From Victivallales bacterium (GTDB taxonomy: Bacteria > Verrucomicrobiota > Lentisphaeria > Victivallales > Victivallaceae): 40,200 nt of DNA. A program made the translations under genes and the position numbers. This document shows positions 6,875 to 38,767 of this stretch, one piece after another. The stretch lies in NCBI GenBank assembly GCA_031261965.1, contig JAISIP010000193.1:1-40200 (forward strand). The letters are read 5' to 3'. The notes under the pieces are model-generated. The model had not been told where the DNA came from. It worked only from the letters and a program-made list of their open reading frames with translations, and made no database searches. Positions within the stretch are counted from its first letter, which is position 1. Each line of letters begins with the position of its first letter.

Positions 6875-9800
6875 ATGCTTAAAAAGGAAAGTCAAAGTAC
6901 AACCGCCTCCGAGTCCGATAATCCGTCTATTTCCGTAAAAGGTGCGGTTTCGGGCGATGCTTTCGTTTCGAGCCAAATGCCGGAGGCGGAATATATGTAC
7001 GGTTGCGCGCCGACCGCAATCGGAATGATCCTCGGCTACTATGATTTGTACGGATACGCCGGGAAAGATTATTCTGCTTTAATTGAAGGTATCGTTGACC
7101 TGAACTCCCGCGGCAGCGATGGAAATATCTACAATATGAACGAGTTCAACGTTCTTGGCAGTTTCATCGCGTCGCGTGAACATGTGGAGCGTTTTTACTC
7201 AAGAAACGGAAGCTCCGCGACTACCCCGGAGCAGGAGTTGCCGTATTCGTTTGTGGGCGGCGGCTATAATTCCGGGGTTTCCCAAATCGATATTTCGCTT
7301 TGGGACTGTCTGTCGGACTATCTCGGCACCAACCAATACTGGCGCGGGAATGGGGATTTCTCGACAACCTACCACTATGATATGACGTTGCAACAGATTA
7401 TAAATCGCAACAGCACCGTCACTTTTCGATCGGGATCCGAGATTAGATCGATTGATTGGCGTTATACTACTATGCTCTACGGCTTGAATTTGTATATCGA
7501 GTCGTGCGGTTATTCGTTTAATGCTCAAGAAACCGGCAGCTTCAGAGTGGATTCTTACGGCGGGAGTTTTACCTTTGAAGATTATATGCGGGAAATCGAT
7601 GCCGACCGACCGGTTTTAATCAGCATAGAAGGTCATGCCATGACCGGATACGGCTACAACGAAGCGACCCGCGAAATCATTTTTGACGACACCTATAACA
7701 GCGGTCAGCGTATGACCTGGGGAGGCTCTTACTATTATTCCGGCGAGTATCGGGAGCTTTTGTCAATCACCGTGTTGAGTCTGGAGGGGGGTGGCGTTAT
7801 CCCTGAGTTGGACTCCGAGTCGCCGCAACTCAACGGCACGCCCACTGTTTTAATCAGAGGGGAAACTGTCACAATCCGTTGGTCGCCCGCCACCGACAAT
7901 GTCGGAGTGGAGGGTTATATCCTGAGAATTGGGCAAAATGAATATACATTAAAAGAAACTTCGTATACGCTTAGACTTAGCACCGGAGTTTATAATTTTA
8001 CCGTTCTTGCTTATGATGCCAAAGGCAACCGCAGCAATTGGTCCGAAGAGCAAAGCTTTACTATTTCCGACCTGCAAACTCCGCAATTCAACTCCGCACC
8101 GAAAGCCAATGTCAGCGGTCGCGGCTTTACCATTTACTGGCAACCCGCCGACGACAACATCGGAATAGCCGGGTATGTTGTAAAGCTAAACGGCGAAGAG
8201 TACGAGGTAAAAGAGGGCAACTCACTGGCGTTTAAAAACCAGAAGTTAGGAACGTATGTCTATCAAGTCAAGGCATACGATTATGCGGGAAATTACGTCT
8301 GGAGCGTAAGCCGCAGTTTTAAGCTTGAAGAAAAGGACATCGGAGTTTATTTCGAGCTGCTTGCAGGCATGGTGTATGGCACTCAAAGCGTGGTTTTGGG
8401 CGACGTTGCACTAAAACCGGGTAAGTATCAGCTCGGTGGGGATTTCGACAACTTCAGCGGGAAAATCACCGTTGTAAACCTCGCTAACAACAAAAAATCC
8501 GGCAGTGCCACCGTGAAAAACGGCGTATTGAATTTCAAAAAACCTCTGTTGCTTGACGGCAATTATAGAGTTCTGGCGACGGGGAATAAAAATGCCGCCG
8601 GGAGTTTTTCGGTCGAACTCTCCGGCGAAATTTTCTACCGCAACGATAACAGCGATGACTCTATTGCCCATTTAAAAAGCGGACAAAGAATCGAGGTCAA
8701 CACCGCGCCGATGACTTTGATCACAAATGAATGGGTTGGTTTCGGCGATGAGTTTGACTACCGGGCAATCACCCTTGACTATGCCGGGAAATACAGCTTT
8801 GACCTCAGCTCAAGTGACGCGACCAAACTGACGATCTGGTCAATGCAACCCAACGGCAAGCTGAAATCGGTCAAAAAAGTATCGGCAAAAGCCGGGCAAA
8901 GTGTGAGTATCGCCAATCGCTTGCTCAGTGCCGGAACGTACTATATAAGCGTGCAATCCTCCAATGCCAAAAAAGGCGGCAACGCGAGTTACAGCGTAAG
9001 ACTGAATAATTCGACTGCGTTCTTTACCCGCGGCGATAACAGCGATGACTCCATTGGTCAATTAAAAAGCAACCGATGGATCGCGGTCAGCGCTTCACCG
9101 ATAAGTTTAATCGCAGATGAATGGGTCGGTTTCAGCGATGAGTTCGACTACCGGGCGATCACCCTTGACTATGCCGGGAAATACAGCTTTGACCTCAGCT
9201 CAAGTGACGCGACCAAACTGACAATCTGGTCAATGCAACCCAGCGGCAAGCTGAAATCGGTCAAAAAAATATCGGCAAAAGCCGGACAAAGTGTGAGCAT
9301 CGCCAATCTCTTGCTCAGTGCCGGAACGTACTATATAAGCGTGCAATCCTCCAATGCAAAAAAAGGCGGCAACGCGAGTTACAGTGTAAGGCTGAATAAT
9401 TCGACTGTTTTCTTTACCCGCGGCGATAACAGCGATGACAATCCGATGTCGCTTGGCGAAGCTTATCACCAAGAGATCGATGAGGACAGCTGGCATCTAA
9501 TTGCAAATAACTGGGTTGGCTACGGCGATGCGATAGATTATCGCGAGCTGGCGATTAAACGGTCGGGATTATACACTTTTTCGCTATCCGGCGTAACCGA
9601 TACGGTAAAACTCACATTGTTCACCGATGGCACTAACGGAAAATTGAAAAAACTCAAATCGGTGTCGGTCAAATCCGGCGGCGGTTCGCTTGTTGCACAA
9701 GCTTTAGACACGCATCAACGCTATTTCGTTGCAATAGAATCGACCAAGGCGAAAAAAGGGGGATATTCCGCTTACAATCTCGATGTGTCCTTTGAGTTAC

Positions 9801-10861: not shown

Positions 10862-11028
10862 GGGTATCTCTAAAAACTATCTTGAGGTAAAAAATCGACA
10901 TATTCGCAATCTGACGGTGCGATTTTGTAAGTATCGGACTAACATAAAGTTAATCAGATACGAGCAAGGTCGCGCATACAAATGCGAGATGCGATTTTTA
11001 GCCAAGTTTCCAGTTTTTAGAGGTATCC
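10862..11028 (+). repeat. PE1 palindromic element, copy A (167 bp)
   Basis: The left end GGGTATCTCTAAAAACT and the right end CAGTTTTTAGAGGTATCC are inverted. Direct repeats TCAA flank it (10858-10861 and 11029-11032). The middle holds the family's internal palindrome (TCGGACTAACA...GTTAATCAGAT). One frame is stop-free across the whole copy (peptide KGISKNYLEVKNRHIRNL...). It lies between the divergent AraC regulator and the SDR operon. The rest of 10823-11148 is AT-rich, with no further gene visible. Confidence 0.92.
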
Positions 11029-13083: not shown

Positions 13084-13096
13084 TTGTAAAAAGATA

Positions 13097-13163
13097 GAGC
13101 TAATTGCAAAATTACCTTTTTGGCATGATTTTGACGGTACTATTGAGAATTTTTTGTTCTTTG
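13097..13163. repeat. Partial PE2 element overlapping the end of the Sel1-like gene
   Basis: From GAGCTAATTGCAAAATTACC through GAGAATTTTTTGTTCTTTG, this stretch is almost identical to the reverse complement of 36206-36272 in the full PE2 copy. The other half is missing. It supplies the last codons and TAG stop of the minus-strand gene ending at 13140, so the protein's C-terminal RTKNSQ is repeat-derived. Confidence 0.85.
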
Positions 13164-15089
13164 ATAAGCTCTAAGTCTTCTTATTGCATCGCTTTGCAAG
13201 GCTTGAATCGCATCTTCGTCGCCGCGTTCGGCGGCGCGTTGCAACCAAAATTTTGCCTTAGATGGGTTATAACGCAAAAAAGCGTTTGGATCGGTCGCGG
13301 AATGCAAATACAACATGCCCAGAGCGCATTGCGCCACCGTGTTGTATGCTTGAATCCCCGCCTTGACCGACGCCAAATTTTTGTCGCGGTCACGTGGTAG
13401 TTTTAAGTTTCGATTCATTCCTGCTAAAGCACCGACAAATGCGTTGGTCTCCAAATTATCGGTCGGCAACGCTTTCAGTAATTCCAGTGGATTCTTATCC
13501 GAGGAATGTCTCAAATAGTATTGCGAATAATAGTACGCCGGACGATACCCCTGCTCGATGGCTTTTTGGAAAAATTCGGCGGCGCGTTTTCTCCAGAGGA
13601 CGGTTTCATCCCAATTCTTCGGAATGTATTCGCTGCTTGCCCGACCGGCCAGGCAAATATCTTCCGGTTTGGCTTCTTTGCCTTGCGCATTAACTGTTGA
13701 AACGATTTTGGCGAACAACTCGTTTGCTCTTACTTTGTTTGCCGTGACTCCCGGACGACCGTGCCTGAGAAAACGACCGAGTTCAAATCGCGCTTCCAAT
13801 CCCGGTGCTTTTTCCAGCGTGATCAATGTTTCCTGGTATTTGCCGAACCAGTCATAAGTTCGCGCCAGTTTCAATTGATCGGTGATTTTCGCATAATCCG
13901 GCTCGGTGAAAAGGTCTTTTAACTCCAATGCAGAGAACAACTCTTCCCGAGGTTGCGCCGCGAGAAATTCCCGCTTCCGACGCTCCATCTCCGCCGGCGG
14001 CAACGGATCAAGCATACCGCGCCGGGACATCACTGGCGGGGGATGATGTTCTTCGCGTCCGTTAGATTGTTGAGTCGCAGGTTGGCGAGAGTCGTATCTT
14101 TTTAGCAAATTGTTGTTGTTTAAATAATTGCTGATATTATTTAACGCATCTTCCATATTCGACAAATTTGATGCATCATCGTAACAAAGCAGGATATAGT
14201 CGGAGTCTTCATTTGACAAAATAATTTTAGGTAATTTTAAACAATCTTTCATCGCCAAGCGCATCACCTTATTTGAGTGAAACACCCGTAATTCTTTTGG
14301 CTTATTCTGTCGATCGATGCCCCAAATTAGCCAATTTACGTTTTCTGATGTGATAATGTTACCATTGTCGGAAATAATTTTTTTCCCTTGGATTTTGATT
14401 GCTGTTAATGGAGTAAAATCATTGTGCTGTATATCTTCGGCAACAATAGAATACTTGTTTACAATGGAGTAGATTACCCATCTGTAAAGCATTGGCGAAA
14501 CGGATGGAATCCACTCGTTTTGATTCGCGTTTTGTAAAGGAATACGAGCAAGAATATCTTCACCGTCAACTTCATACCAAAGGTGATTGGTTGCATTGGT
14601 TATTGAGGTTGTTGAAAAAGGAACCGAGTTCATAAATAAAATTGGTTGACCATGCCAATAGCCTTTATAGCGCATAGTTTGATCTTCATCGACAAACCCT
14701 TTGATTGTTTGCTGTGTTTGTAGATCAAAAATATTATCCTCCGACCATATTCGAAAAGAAATTCTTCCCATTGCGTCAGATAATAAATTGGGAAATATAA
14801 TTCGAAAATTCCCTTTATTCACAGACCAGGCAAGGGGAAATTTCACAGGTATGGAAGACGTCTTTCGTATACCGGATGGAACAAAAATACTACCTGGCAA
14901 ATAATGCTGTCGCACTTCGTTTGAATTTAAATCCATGACATATAGCTTTACTGCTGCTTCCAACTCCTCGGGAGCTTGACAATAACTCAATATTCCGTCA
15001 TTGATATAGTATTTTGCTATGTCGTTTTCAGCAAGACAGACAGTAAATAAAAATACACACATTACCCCGTATAAAATATAGTATTTCAT
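13140..15089 (-). CDS. Secreted Sel1-repeat protein
   Basis: About 649 aa from ATG 15089; a TTG at 15101 overlaps the previous stop and would add four residues. Signal peptide: MKYYILYGVMCVFLFTVCLA. The first 330 residues are an unrecognised, Trp/Tyr-rich mainly beta region. From about 420 onward are TPR/Sel1-type helical repeats (YDWFGKYQETLITLEKAPGLEARFELGRF, KAKFWLQRAAERGDEDAIQAL). Sel1 repeats usually mediate protein contacts in the periplasm or envelope. The C-terminal few residues and stop come from a PE2 fragment, so the native C-terminus was probably replaced. It directly follows the phase-shifted secreted gene and is likely co-transcribed with it. Confidence 0.82.
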   Translation of the reverse strand: MKYYILYGVMCVFLFTVCLAENDIAKYYINDGILSYCQAPEELEAAVKLYVMDLNSNEVRQHYLPGSIFVPSGIRKTSSIPVKFPLAWSVNKGNFRIIFPNLLSDAMGRISFRIWSEDNIFDLQTQQTIKGFVDEDQTMRYKGYWHGQPILFMNSVPFSTTSITNATNHLWYEVDGEDILARIPLQNANQNEWIPSVSPMLYRWVIYSIVNKYSIVAEDIQHNDFTPLTAIKIQGKKIISDNGNIITSENVNWLIWGIDRQNKPKELRVFHSNKVMRLAMKDCLKLPKIILSNEDSDYILLCYDDASNLSNMEDALNNISNYLNNNNLLKRYDSRQPATQQSNGREEHHPPPVMSRRGMLDPLPPAEMERRKREFLAAQPREELFSALELKDLFTEPDYAKITDQLKLARTYDWFGKYQETLITLEKAPGLEARFELGRFLRHGRPGVTANKVRANELFAKIVSTVNAQGKEAKPEDICLAGRASSEYIPKNWDETVLWRKRAAEFFQKAIEQGYRPAYYYSQYYLRHSSDKNPLELLKALPTDNLETNAFVGALAGMNRNLKLPRDRDKNLASVKAGIQAYNTVAQCALGMLYLHSATDPNAFLRYNPSKAKFWLQRAAERGDEDAIQALQSDAIRRLRAYQRTKNSQ

Positions 15090-19538: not shown

Positions 19539-19706
19539 GGCTACCTCTAAAAACAGGAAACTTGGCTAAAAATCGCATCTCGCATTTGTATGTGTGCTGC
19601 TTGCGCGTATCCGGTTAACTTCATGTTAGCCGGATACTTACAAAATCGCACCTTCAAATTGCGAATATGCCAATTTTTTACCTCAAGCCAGTTTTTAGAG
19701 ATACCC
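19539..19706 (-). repeat. PE1 palindromic element, copy B (168 bp)
   Basis: Starts GGCTACCTCTAAAAACAGG and ends CCAGTTTTTAGAGATACCC, inverted relative to copy A. Direct repeats TTTA flank it (19535-19538 and 19707-19710). The internal palindrome ATCCGGTTAACTTCATGTTAGCCGGAT is well kept with a compensated base pair (C-G where other copies have T-A). It sits just upstream of nadE. Confidence 0.92.
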
Positions 19707-23714: not shown

Positions 23715-25871
23715 TCAAGTGCCGGAGAGACTTTTCTCGTGAATTTCAACCATGTGAATGGAGCAGTTATCGTCGTACGCCACAAAACCGAAGTGCTGGC
23801 GCATGGCTGGACTTTGTACCTCGAATTCTCCCGAAGCAACCCCGGAATCATCGATATTAAGTTCAAGCGGAATTTCTCCAAAGCGCAAACGCAACTGTTT
23901 TAGATTCTCCCCGCGAATGATAATTTTATAACTCCCCTCCTGAAAATTGACAAAAGGCGAAAACGTGGTTTGCCCCCACTTAAGCGTCAATTTAGTTCGC
24001 GAACGGACCGGCGTGAGTCGTTCAGCCGGAATAAAGATGCTTTTGGCATCCTTCGCCGCAGGCAGTGGCGTAAAGCCCGGAATCGGGACGGTGCTGCCGG
24101 CGATCATGCCATTATCTATTTCATAACAGTATAGTCCGCTTCTGCCAACGAGCTTTCTCATTCGGAAAAGATAGAGCGTGTGATCGGCAAGTGGACGGTT
24201 TTCGTCGATCATTATGCGCAGTTTATGCCGGAGATTCGCGGTTCGTTTTTCCGGACGCGAAAAATAAAAATCGCTTAGAGCGATCTTATTCTTTAGCGCA
24301 AAGTAGCCAAAACCAATCATATCGTACTCCGAGCCTTGAACCAGTGCGAGCAATCGAACTTGTTCCGGCGATGCATGTACCAACTGCGACAGTTTTGAAT
24401 CGGCGATAGGGGCGGCAACCGGATTCTTGAATTTTTCAAACGAATTGCGTATCATCGGCAAAAGTCCGTAAAGTTGCACCAACAGCAAACAAAGCAAAAT
24501 CCATCCGCAACGTTTAGGCGGGGTGTGGCGGATTACCATGGCGACGGCAAACAACATCAGCGCGTACATCGGCACCCACATAAATCTGCCGGAAGCGCGA
24601 AAGACATTGCAAAACCATAGCAGGCTCTCCGGCAACGGGATCGTATAAAGAACATATTGATTCCACGTGACCTTTATCGAGAGTGCATAACAAAAAAATA
24701 TAGCACAAATCAGAAAAAACGGCAACGCCAATCCCTGAGGCAAGAGTCGCCGAAAACCGGAGCAATTTCGGCATATTCGCAAATATCCGGCAAGCAACAC
24801 CATACCGATCATGCCCGCACCGATAAAGGCTTGCCCCTCGTACTGCCCTGCATGGATGAATTGGGTTTTGATTAGATTGTCCGGCTGTACCGGGTTGTAA
24901 AGTGCATTTAAATTTGCCCCGAAAGAGCCGAACTTACCGGCACCTTCGGCGACTCCGCAAAAGCCACCGATCAGATAGAAAAACAGCGTAACAACAACAA
25001 AGTATGAGAGCAGACCAAACCACGGTTTAAGGCTTTTGGGTATCTCTAAAAACTGGCTTGAGTTACAAAATTGGCAGATTCGCAATTTGGAGGCGCGATT
25101 TTGCAAGCATCTGGCTAACACTGAGTTAACCAGATTCGCGCAAGGTCGCGCATACACCTGTGATCTGCAATTTTTAGCCAAGTTTCCGGTTTTTAGAGAT
25201 ACCCCGTTGCATTGCAAACTCAAATACAGCATTTGCCCGAAGAAAATTCCGCTGACCATGGCGGCGAGAAACGGATGAATCGCAATAGTTACACAGCCGA
25301 GTAAAAGCCATTTTGAGAGTATTCGACATAGTGCGGTATCCGGTTTGGTATAGAGCCAGATGGCGAACCCGGCGAGAATTGTCCACTGCGCCGCGAGCGA
25401 AGTATGGTAAAACATGCGAAAGAACATCGCCGGAACAAAGAGAAAAAATAGAGTGCCAAGCAAACACGGCAAGAGCCGATTGGTAAATCGCCGCAGTAAT
25501 AATGCCGCAAAACCGCCTTGCAGCATAAACGAACATAGTCCGAAAATCCCGAAATATTGAAACTGCTCCGGCAAAAATCCGCGAAACAACTTGAAGATCA
25601 AAGCAAAAAGTGGAATCGAGTCGGTAAAGACGATCGACGAATCATGTGGATACGAGAGTAAATCAGTCAACGTGAGCGGAAATGTCCACGGGGAGTTGCG
25701 AAACGCCGTCCAACCCAAAAAGTGCTGAGTCGGGTCGCCGCCGTCCATGAGTATCCAGCCGATCTTTTGCGGGTCGAGAACTTTGTAGTTGAAACTCACG
25801 GCAAAAGCGATCAAACCCAACAATACGCCATAGATAAAAACGCAAAAAAACGAGTTGTGCTTTTCTTTCAT
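23715..25871 (-). CDS. DUF6311-like polytopic membrane protein carrying an in-frame PE1 insert
   Basis: 718 aa from ATG 25871; the frame extends upstream to 25946 only inside a PE1 copy, so I reject that extension. About 11-12 membrane segments in the first 500 residues are followed by a soluble C-terminal domain. The N-terminal MDGGDPTQHFLGWTAFRNSPW and FTDSIPLFALIFKLF resemble the DUF6311 family, related to GT-C glycosyltransferase-like proteins. Residues about 223-279 are wholly encoded by PE1 copy D read in reverse (peptide GVSLKTGNLAKNCRSQ... to ...NSSQFLEIP). The insert lies in a loop between two membrane segments, without stops or frame change. The gene may still be functional, with a 57-residue loop. 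Repeat E lies 5 nt upstream of the ATG and no good Shine-Dalgarno remains. Confidence 0.85.
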   Translation of the reverse strand: MKEKHNSFFCVFIYGVLLGLIAFAVSFNYKVLDPQKIGWILMDGGDPTQHFLGWTAFRNSPWTFPLTLTDLLSYPHDSSIVFTDSIPLFALIFKLFRGFLPEQFQYFGIFGLCSFMLQGGFAALLLRRFTNRLLPCLLGTLFFLFVPAMFFRMFYHTSLAAQWTILAGFAIWLYTKPDTALCRILSKWLLLGCVTIAIHPFLAAMVSGIFFGQMLYLSLQCNGVSLKTGNLAKNCRSQVYARPCANLVNSVLARCLQNRASKLRICQFCNSSQFLEIPKSLKPWFGLLSYFVVVTLFFYLIGGFCGVAEGAGKFGSFGANLNALYNPVQPDNLIKTQFIHAGQYEGQAFIGAGMIGMVLLAGYLRICRNCSGFRRLLPQGLALPFFLICAIFFCYALSIKVTWNQYVLYTIPLPESLLWFCNVFRASGRFMWVPMYALMLFAVAMVIRHTPPKRCGWILLCLLLVQLYGLLPMIRNSFEKFKNPVAAPIADSKLSQLVHASPEQVRLLALVQGSEYDMIGFGYFALKNKIALSDFYFSRPEKRTANLRHKLRIMIDENRPLADHTLYLFRMRKLVGRSGLYCYEIDNGMIAGSTVPIPGFTPLPAAKDAKSIFIPAERLTPVRSRTKLTLKWGQTTFSPFVNFQEGSYKIIIRGENLKQLRLRFGEIPLELNIDDSGVASGEFEVQSPAMRQHFGFVAYDDNCSIHMVEIHEKSLSGT
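25038..25204 (+). repeat. PE1 palindromic element, copy D (167 bp), inside a coding sequence
   Basis: Complete copy with ends GGGTATCTCTAAAAACTGG and CCGGTTTTTAGAGATACCC. No matching 4-bp duplication is visible (TTTT on the left, CGTT on the right), so the insertion may be older or the flanks have changed. It is read in frame by the minus-strand membrane protein gene. The opposite-strand frame open in the other intact copies is also open here. Confidence 0.93.
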
Positions 25872-25876
25872 CTTCA

Positions 25877-26044
25877 GGGTATTCCTAAAAACTGGAAACT
25901 TGGCTAAAATTCGCATCTCGCATTCGTATGCACACTGCTTGCACACATCTGGTTAACTCCATGTTGGCCGAACGCTTGCAAAATCGCGCCTCCAAATTGC
26001 GAATCTGCCAATTTTGTAACTCAAGATAGTTTTTAGAGATACCC
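25877..26044 (-). repeat. PE1 palindromic element, copy E (168 bp), abutting a start codon
   Basis: Starts GGGTATTCCTAAAAACTGG and ends AGTTTTTAGAGATACCC. TTCA repeats flank it (25873-25876 and 26045-26048). It ends 5 nt from the ATG at 25871, so it has displaced the ribosome-binding region of the membrane protein gene; the nearest AGGAA on the minus strand is inside the element. Confidence 0.92.
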
Positions 26045-27630: not shown

Positions 27631-27636
27631 TCTTTA

Positions 27637-27798
27637 GGATACCTCTAAAAACTGGAAATTTGGCTGAAAATTGCAGCTCATATTCGTATGCTCGGTCTTG
27701 CAAGCAGCTGGTTAACTCTATATTAGTCAGCTACTTGCAAAATCGCACCTCCAAATCATAAATCTGCTAATTTTCAACACAACGTGAGTTTTTAAGCC
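27637..27798 (-). repeat. PE1 palindromic element, copy F (degenerate)
   Basis: Starts GGATACCTCTAAAAACTGG and runs through the family interior (CAGCTGGTTAACTCTATATTAGTCAGCTAC, palindromic in part) to GAGTTTTTAAGCCTC. It has more mismatches than the other copies and no clear target duplication. It lies between the convergent hydrolase gene and sialidase remnant. Confidence 0.82.
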
Positions 27799-36103: not shown

Positions 36104-36272
36104 GAGCTAATTGCAAAACTATTTTGCCCGTTTTTGAGTCCTATTGATTTTTTTGCTCCTTTGACGCGCTTTTTTTGCGTAGTGCTACTACGCTTTGAAG
36201 CTTGGCAAAGAATAAAAAATTCTCAATAGTATCGTCAAAATCATGTCAAAAAGGTAGTTTTGCAATTAGCTC
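36104..36272. repeat. PE2 palindromic element, full copy (169 bp)
   Basis: Ends GAGCTAATTGCAAAACTA and TAGTTTTGCAATTAGCTC are exact inverted repeats. Inside is a hairpin GCGTAGTGCTACTACGC. No clear target duplication. It lies in the 289-bp region between the divergent FAD oxidoreductase and PocR-AraC genes, so it separates or shifts their promoters. The remaining intergenic DNA is very AT-rich. Confidence 0.9.
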
Positions 36273-36299
36273 TTTTATCCAAATTATACCACAAAAAAT

Positions 36300-38600: not shown

Positions 38601-38767
38601 GGGTATCTCTAAAAACTGGAGACTTGGCTAAAAATTGCATCTCGCATTCGTATGCGCGACCTTGCGCACATCTGGTTAACTTCATGTTAGCCAGATGTTT
38701 GCAAAATCGCGCCTCCAAATCGCGAATCTGGTAATTGTGTAACTCAAGCCAGTTTTTAGAGATACCC
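38601..38767 (-). repeat. PE1 palindromic element, copy H (167 bp), in a 5' leader
   Basis: Complete copy with ends GGGTATCTCTAAAAACTGG and CCAGTTTTTAGAGATACCC. TTCA repeats flank it (38597-38600 and 38768-38771). The internal palindrome ATCTGGTTAACTTCATGTTAGCCAGAT is present. It sits between a good promoter match and the lipoprotein gene. The rest of 38455-38804 has no gene. Confidence 0.93.

Follow-up and report, generated by a model that had tools for sequence, protein, structure and literature searches.

The best-known cases of mobile palindromes inserted in frame into protein-coding genes come from Rickettsia and Wolbachia, which are reduced intracellular bacteria. Three papers (PMC2229807, PMC3767692, PMC10969869) summarize the Rickettsia palindromic elements RPE-1 to RPE-3, described also in Wolbachia, as palindromes of about 100–150 bp with terminal inverted repeats (TIRs) and a long predicted stem-loop, which have entered various conserved, mutually unrelated genes in frame and there encode a recurring peptide. 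According to the first of these, the R. conorii gmk gene carrying an RPE is translated and yields an active enzyme, while the target duplication of RPEs is given there as unknown (PMC2229807). The enterobacterial ERIC/RU-1, RU-2 and RU-3 elements are small mobile repeats, mostly intergenic, some of which contribute their open frame to in-frame gene fusions (PMC2759123, PMC2229807). Correia/NEMIS elements possess TIRs and target duplications, and a shorter form of 107 bp was found in frame inside ORFs (PMC2229807). Finally, QMITE1 and QMITE2 of Coxiella burnetii are MITEs that encode basic peptides, sometimes in frame within ORFs, and overlap with functional genes at 3′ ends (PMC5896051). In-frame mobile palindromes are known already as a kind; what appears to be new is the PE1 family described here and its presence in this phylum, as a literature search returned no relevant paper, an absence that is no proof.

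The analyzed window, a stretch of 40,200 nt, is the whole of one contig (C66) of the draft genome of a Victivallis (G000; 2.38 Mb, 209 contigs, 89% completeness). We read 1.59 Mb of this genome, about two thirds, and counts of full copies as well as the transposase search refer to these letters. PE1 is a palindrome of 167 bp with 19-bp TIRs and is present in roughly 240 copies: genome-wide, TIR-like ends occurred 239 and 242 times on the two strands, versus 1 and 1 for a reversed control pattern. The 1.59 Mb contained 234 non-overlapping matches. Full copies numbered 118, of which 63 had a length of exactly 167 bp. A perfect 4-bp target duplication with the consensus TNNA flanked 82 of the 109 full copies with clean ends. 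Length and TIRs agree with those of MITEs (about 100–400 bp), as do the duplications, the many copies and the lack of a long ORF of its own. The RNA is predicted to fold into a single hairpin (−75 kcal/mol, z = −10.3), and of the six frames of the subfamily consensus, two are open. PE1 was absent from eight congeners, and its TIR was absent from the other 387 genomes sampled from the phylum but for one single-site match with one mismatch; no relatives were found in phages and plasmids. As far as the 388 genomes sampled from the phylum tell, PE1 is a lineage-restricted expansion confined to the source genome. The search of the 1.59 Mb found neither a transposase between PE1 TIR pairs nor an insertion sequence with PE1 ends. 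From the TIRs, duplications, copy number and restricted range, and with no transposase with such ends found, we therefore term PE1 a non-autonomous, MITE-like palindromic insertion element. The DDE_Tnp_1 genes of the genome have ends unrelated to PE1 or are remnants: as partners of PE1 we rejected the transposase on C196, which has its own ends (TACTAGTGATGCACTAAA), and those on C35 and C166, which are remnants. A candidate element of 1557 bp on C153 was discarded as well, being a glycyl-tRNA-synthetase-like gene flanked by two PE1 copies. Shorter elements of 80–94 bp (L032 2943–3024, L033 5224–5317, L034 2748–2839 and L036 404–483) share the TIRs of PE1 and are flanked by perfect 4-bp duplications; they constitute a smaller form of PE1 besides the full-length one.

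Like the RPEs, PE1 is a palindrome with a long stem-loop that lies in frame in unrelated protein genes whose homologues show a gap. It differs from them in its length of 167 bp and its clear 4-bp TNNA duplications, and it resides in another phylum, its host being a Victivallis and not a member of the Rickettsiales. Furthermore, a peptide search revealed no relationship, and the share of PE1 copies that lie inside genes is no more than a few per cent. In neither sequence nor lineage is PE1 an RPE. With ERIC/RU it shares small size, mobility, a mostly intergenic location and occasional in-frame fusion, but sequence, host and target differ, and PE1 has clean empty sites in congeners. TIRs, target duplications and in-frame presence in ORFs are common to PE1 and Correia/NEMIS elements; no related sequence was found, however, and in PE1 it is the full copies themselves that hold open frames. 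The QMITEs resemble the copy described below in encoding a basic peptide in frame within an ORF, whereas PE1 is found mid-gene in conserved genes such as murD.

The copy at the center of this study, copy D, lies in a DUF6311 membrane-protein gene on the minus strand (positions 23715–25871; 718 aa, ATG at 25871) that matches PF19830 and has orthologues in four congeners (G001, G002, G003 and G005). As stated in the original prediction, the element is a complete 167-bp PE1 (25038–25204, minus strand), and the reading frame traverses it without stop or frameshift. Copy D is 88–93% identical to many other PE1 copies across its full length and departs from the subfamily consensus at 12 positions, with no stop and no indel. 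Six of these 12 differences lie in the stem, where each of them creates a base pair, a count that is biased by having been judged on copy D's own fold; palindrome-templated correction is a possible cause. The inverted ends read GGGTATCTCTAAAAAC(C/T)GG: the TIR at the downstream end in gene sense (25038–25056, plus strand) matches GGGTATCTCTAAAAACTGG exactly, and that at the upstream end (25186–25204, minus strand) carries one mismatch, T to C. The adjoining 4-bp flanks, TTTT (25034–25037) and CGTT (25205–25208), which in gene sense read AAAA and AACG, respectively, agree at two of four positions, so that copy D, in contrast to the family, lacks a recognizable target duplication. The expectation that element plus duplication (167 + 4 bp) make a multiple of three therefore holds as arithmetic and for the duplications of the family, but cannot be read off the flanks of copy D itself. 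Later mutation is a more likely cause of this absence than the joining of two loci, because both flanks belong to one orthologous gene.

Comparison with homologues bore out the view that the peptide is not native to the DUF6311 family. The orthologues of the four congeners align on both sides of the insert and skip it, and the multiple alignment shows a clean 56-column gap in four of four same-genus sequences, demonstrating that the frame is intact relative to them despite the missing duplication. The gap covers residues 223–278, where about 223–279 had been predicted; the insert thus comprises 56 residues instead of about 57. Its position between membrane segments agrees with the prediction, as the hydrophobic segments predicted on either side span residues 193–211 and 287–305. 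The PF19830 score rose from 108.5 bits with the insert to 123.7 without it (cut-off 27); the profile match ends at residue 216 in the former case and spans profile positions 8–301 of 303 in the latter. No homologue with the same inserted peptide was found, nor was a relative of the peptide detected among 84,980 species (one genome each; the source genome's own records may be omitted) or in viral contigs. A search by sequence found no solved relative of DUF6311, and an AlphaFold model built from three sequences (mean pLDDT 41) was not used. The G001 orthologue (L190 2779–4967) is split by a frameshift into frames of 540 and 283 aa and represents either a pseudogene or an assembly error.

Copy D is not unique, since at least three other PE1 copies lie in frame inside genes elsewhere in the genome. 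Coding flanks were called with a phase-aware Markov model (292 of 300 validation cases correct), which replaced a simple codon model that did not discriminate. Among the 118 full copies, 69 had no coding flank, 38 had one, two lay between genes on different strands, four were too near a contig end and five had coding flanks on one strand. One of these five, at larE, is flanked by coding sequence in two different frames and probably sits at a gene boundary. The remaining four, clearly intragenic, are all in frame and open, and lie within the genes for the DUF6311 protein, MurD, a GT4 glycosyltransferase and a membrane protein. The murD copy (L147 5121–5287, on C134) lies mid-gene with a TTAG duplication; seven congeners lack the insert, with alignments breaking at 235/289, and the protein scores 299.2 bits, insert included, against the NCBIfam equivalog TIGR01087 (cut-off 211.95). 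MurD is normally essential, acting in peptidoglycan synthesis, and we saw only one murD copy in the genome; if this gene is used, the insert must therefore be tolerated, which strengthens the finding. The glycosyltransferase copy on C198 shows a TTTA duplication and a break in seven homologues near 186/241, and the membrane-protein copy on C57 uses the other open frame, with one congener breaking at 174/241. Such copies are rare: counting only ORFs of 250 aa or more, about two thirds of the sequence is covered, and since random insertion would place most copies in genes, nearly all intragenic insertions must have been purged or avoided. Five further copies are open and in frame at the N-terminal end, or close to it, of a pseudopilin-like protein (L100 3613–3779), CobB (L040 12289–12455), a 5′-nucleotidase-like protein (L157 12959–13125), a PALP enzyme (L089 9554–9720) and LarE (L132 4143–4309). 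These may be start-site changes or N-terminal extensions and, as translation might begin downstream of the element, we did not count them as proven. Another copy (C126 1910–2086) lies within an open frame of 668 aa.

We consider it very probable that copy D goes back to a chance insertion into an open frame, with the host gene kept by selection and the peptide drifting neutrally. An unseen transposase would have inserted PE1 at AT-rich TNNA targets, duplicating 4 bp, and copy D would have entered the DUF6311 gene once this one Victivallis species had split from the sequenced congeners. Element and duplication together would add 171 bp and keep the reading frame; with two of six frames stop-free, the right orientation and phase would give one added peptide and no truncation. 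Once the gene is transcribed, ribosomes would read through the element, so that the peptide would be present in the DUF6311 protein, in a loop between two membrane segments that may be a permissive place. Selection would retain the host gene and remove other intragenic insertions, while the peptide drifts. That Victivallis harbors a second system, unrelated to the known one and with one of its inserts mid-protein in MurD, indicates independent origins of this route. Moreover, four genes with one element and with empty sites in relatives offer a clean natural set in which the tolerance or adoption of new peptides by proteins can be studied.

A further idea, compatible with these data, is that PE1 itself has been selected to be translatable, a stop-free frame being kept so that the element persists inside essential genes such as murD. 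An open frame was found in 40 of the 63 exact-length copies versus 30.5 expected, a slight excess among copies that are not independent, and we regard the idea as improbable; if true, it would describe a selfish palindrome adapted to living in the proteome, outside the Rickettsiales.

The substitutions within the insert bear on whether the peptide has been adopted and gives the DUF6311 protein a selected function. In copy D alone, 6 of 12 changes are synonymous versus about 3 expected, and its basic character (8 K/R versus 1 D/E) would suit such a role. When three intragenic copies are pooled, however, the inserted peptides show 21 nonsynonymous and 13 synonymous changes and no stop (expected 22.7, 9.0 and 1.8), not clearly different from neutral, and the intergenic copies are alike (196, 79 and 11 stops; expected 194, 74 and 15). 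Changes within the inserted peptides are thus close to neutral, and we hold adoption to be quite unlikely.

The flanking sequence speaks to a further alternative, namely that the DUF6311 gene is a decaying pseudogene whose frame is intact by luck after a very recent insertion. The vanished duplication and a second PE1 copy 5 nt upstream of the start codon could be taken as traces of decay. Against recency stand the 12 changes that copy D carries. For a gene that has been neutral since the insertion, the 1,986 flanking bases would have remained stop-free with a probability of 0.007 if all 12 changes followed it and of 0.11 if only 5 did (indels ignored); because stop-free flanks are so improbable under neutrality, selection has probably acted on the host gene ever since PE1 entered it. 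The DUF6311 protein of the source genome is also about as far from outgroup G005 (56%) as those of the congeners (57–60%), and an insert of the same kind occurs in murD. The gene sequence shows no sign of the decay that the original prediction had named, together with silence, as a refuting observation, and we give a pseudogene slim odds, slightly below those of adoption.

Even less credence is due to the assumption that PE1 is transcribed within the gene and its peptide is nevertheless absent from the protein, either through ribosomes bypassing the hairpin or through removal of the RNA segment. The −75 kcal/mol hairpin that the RNA can form would lend itself to bypass. Neither process would depend on an open frame, whereas the four intragenic copies all lie in an open orientation and phase, for which the chance is about (1/3)^4 = 0.012, and no Rfam family, self-splicing introns included, matches PE1. 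The least probable reading, a repeat-driven misjoin in a draft assembly in which many contigs terminate in PE1 copies and copy D lacks a target duplication, is hardly credible, since a misjoin between different copies would link different loci, whereas both flanks here are one gene, contiguous in four congeners, with the frame exact.

No full copy in the window other than copy D has both of its flanks coding on the same strand, in keeping with the prediction that the others are noncoding. Noncoding copies lie at 10862–11028 (TCAA duplication), 19539–19706 (TTTA) and 38601–38767 (TTCA). A diverged copy (75–77% to the others) is found at 27633–27794. The copy next to the DUF6311 gene (25877–26044, TTCA duplication) is full; its outer end reads TTTTTAGGAATACCC in place of the consensus TTTTTAGAGATACCC, which creates AGGA 11 nt upstream of the DUF6311 ATG. 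This motif occurs in 2 of 236 PE1 element ends, and the copy may supply the putative ribosome-binding site of the gene. Two repeats of other kinds were also observed: a pair of 300-bp direct repeats of 89% identity at 8638–9327, within the gene for a 1035-aa protein, and a non-PE1 inverted pair of 75 nt (13096–13170 and 36199–36273; complementarity 92%), which represents a separate repeat family.
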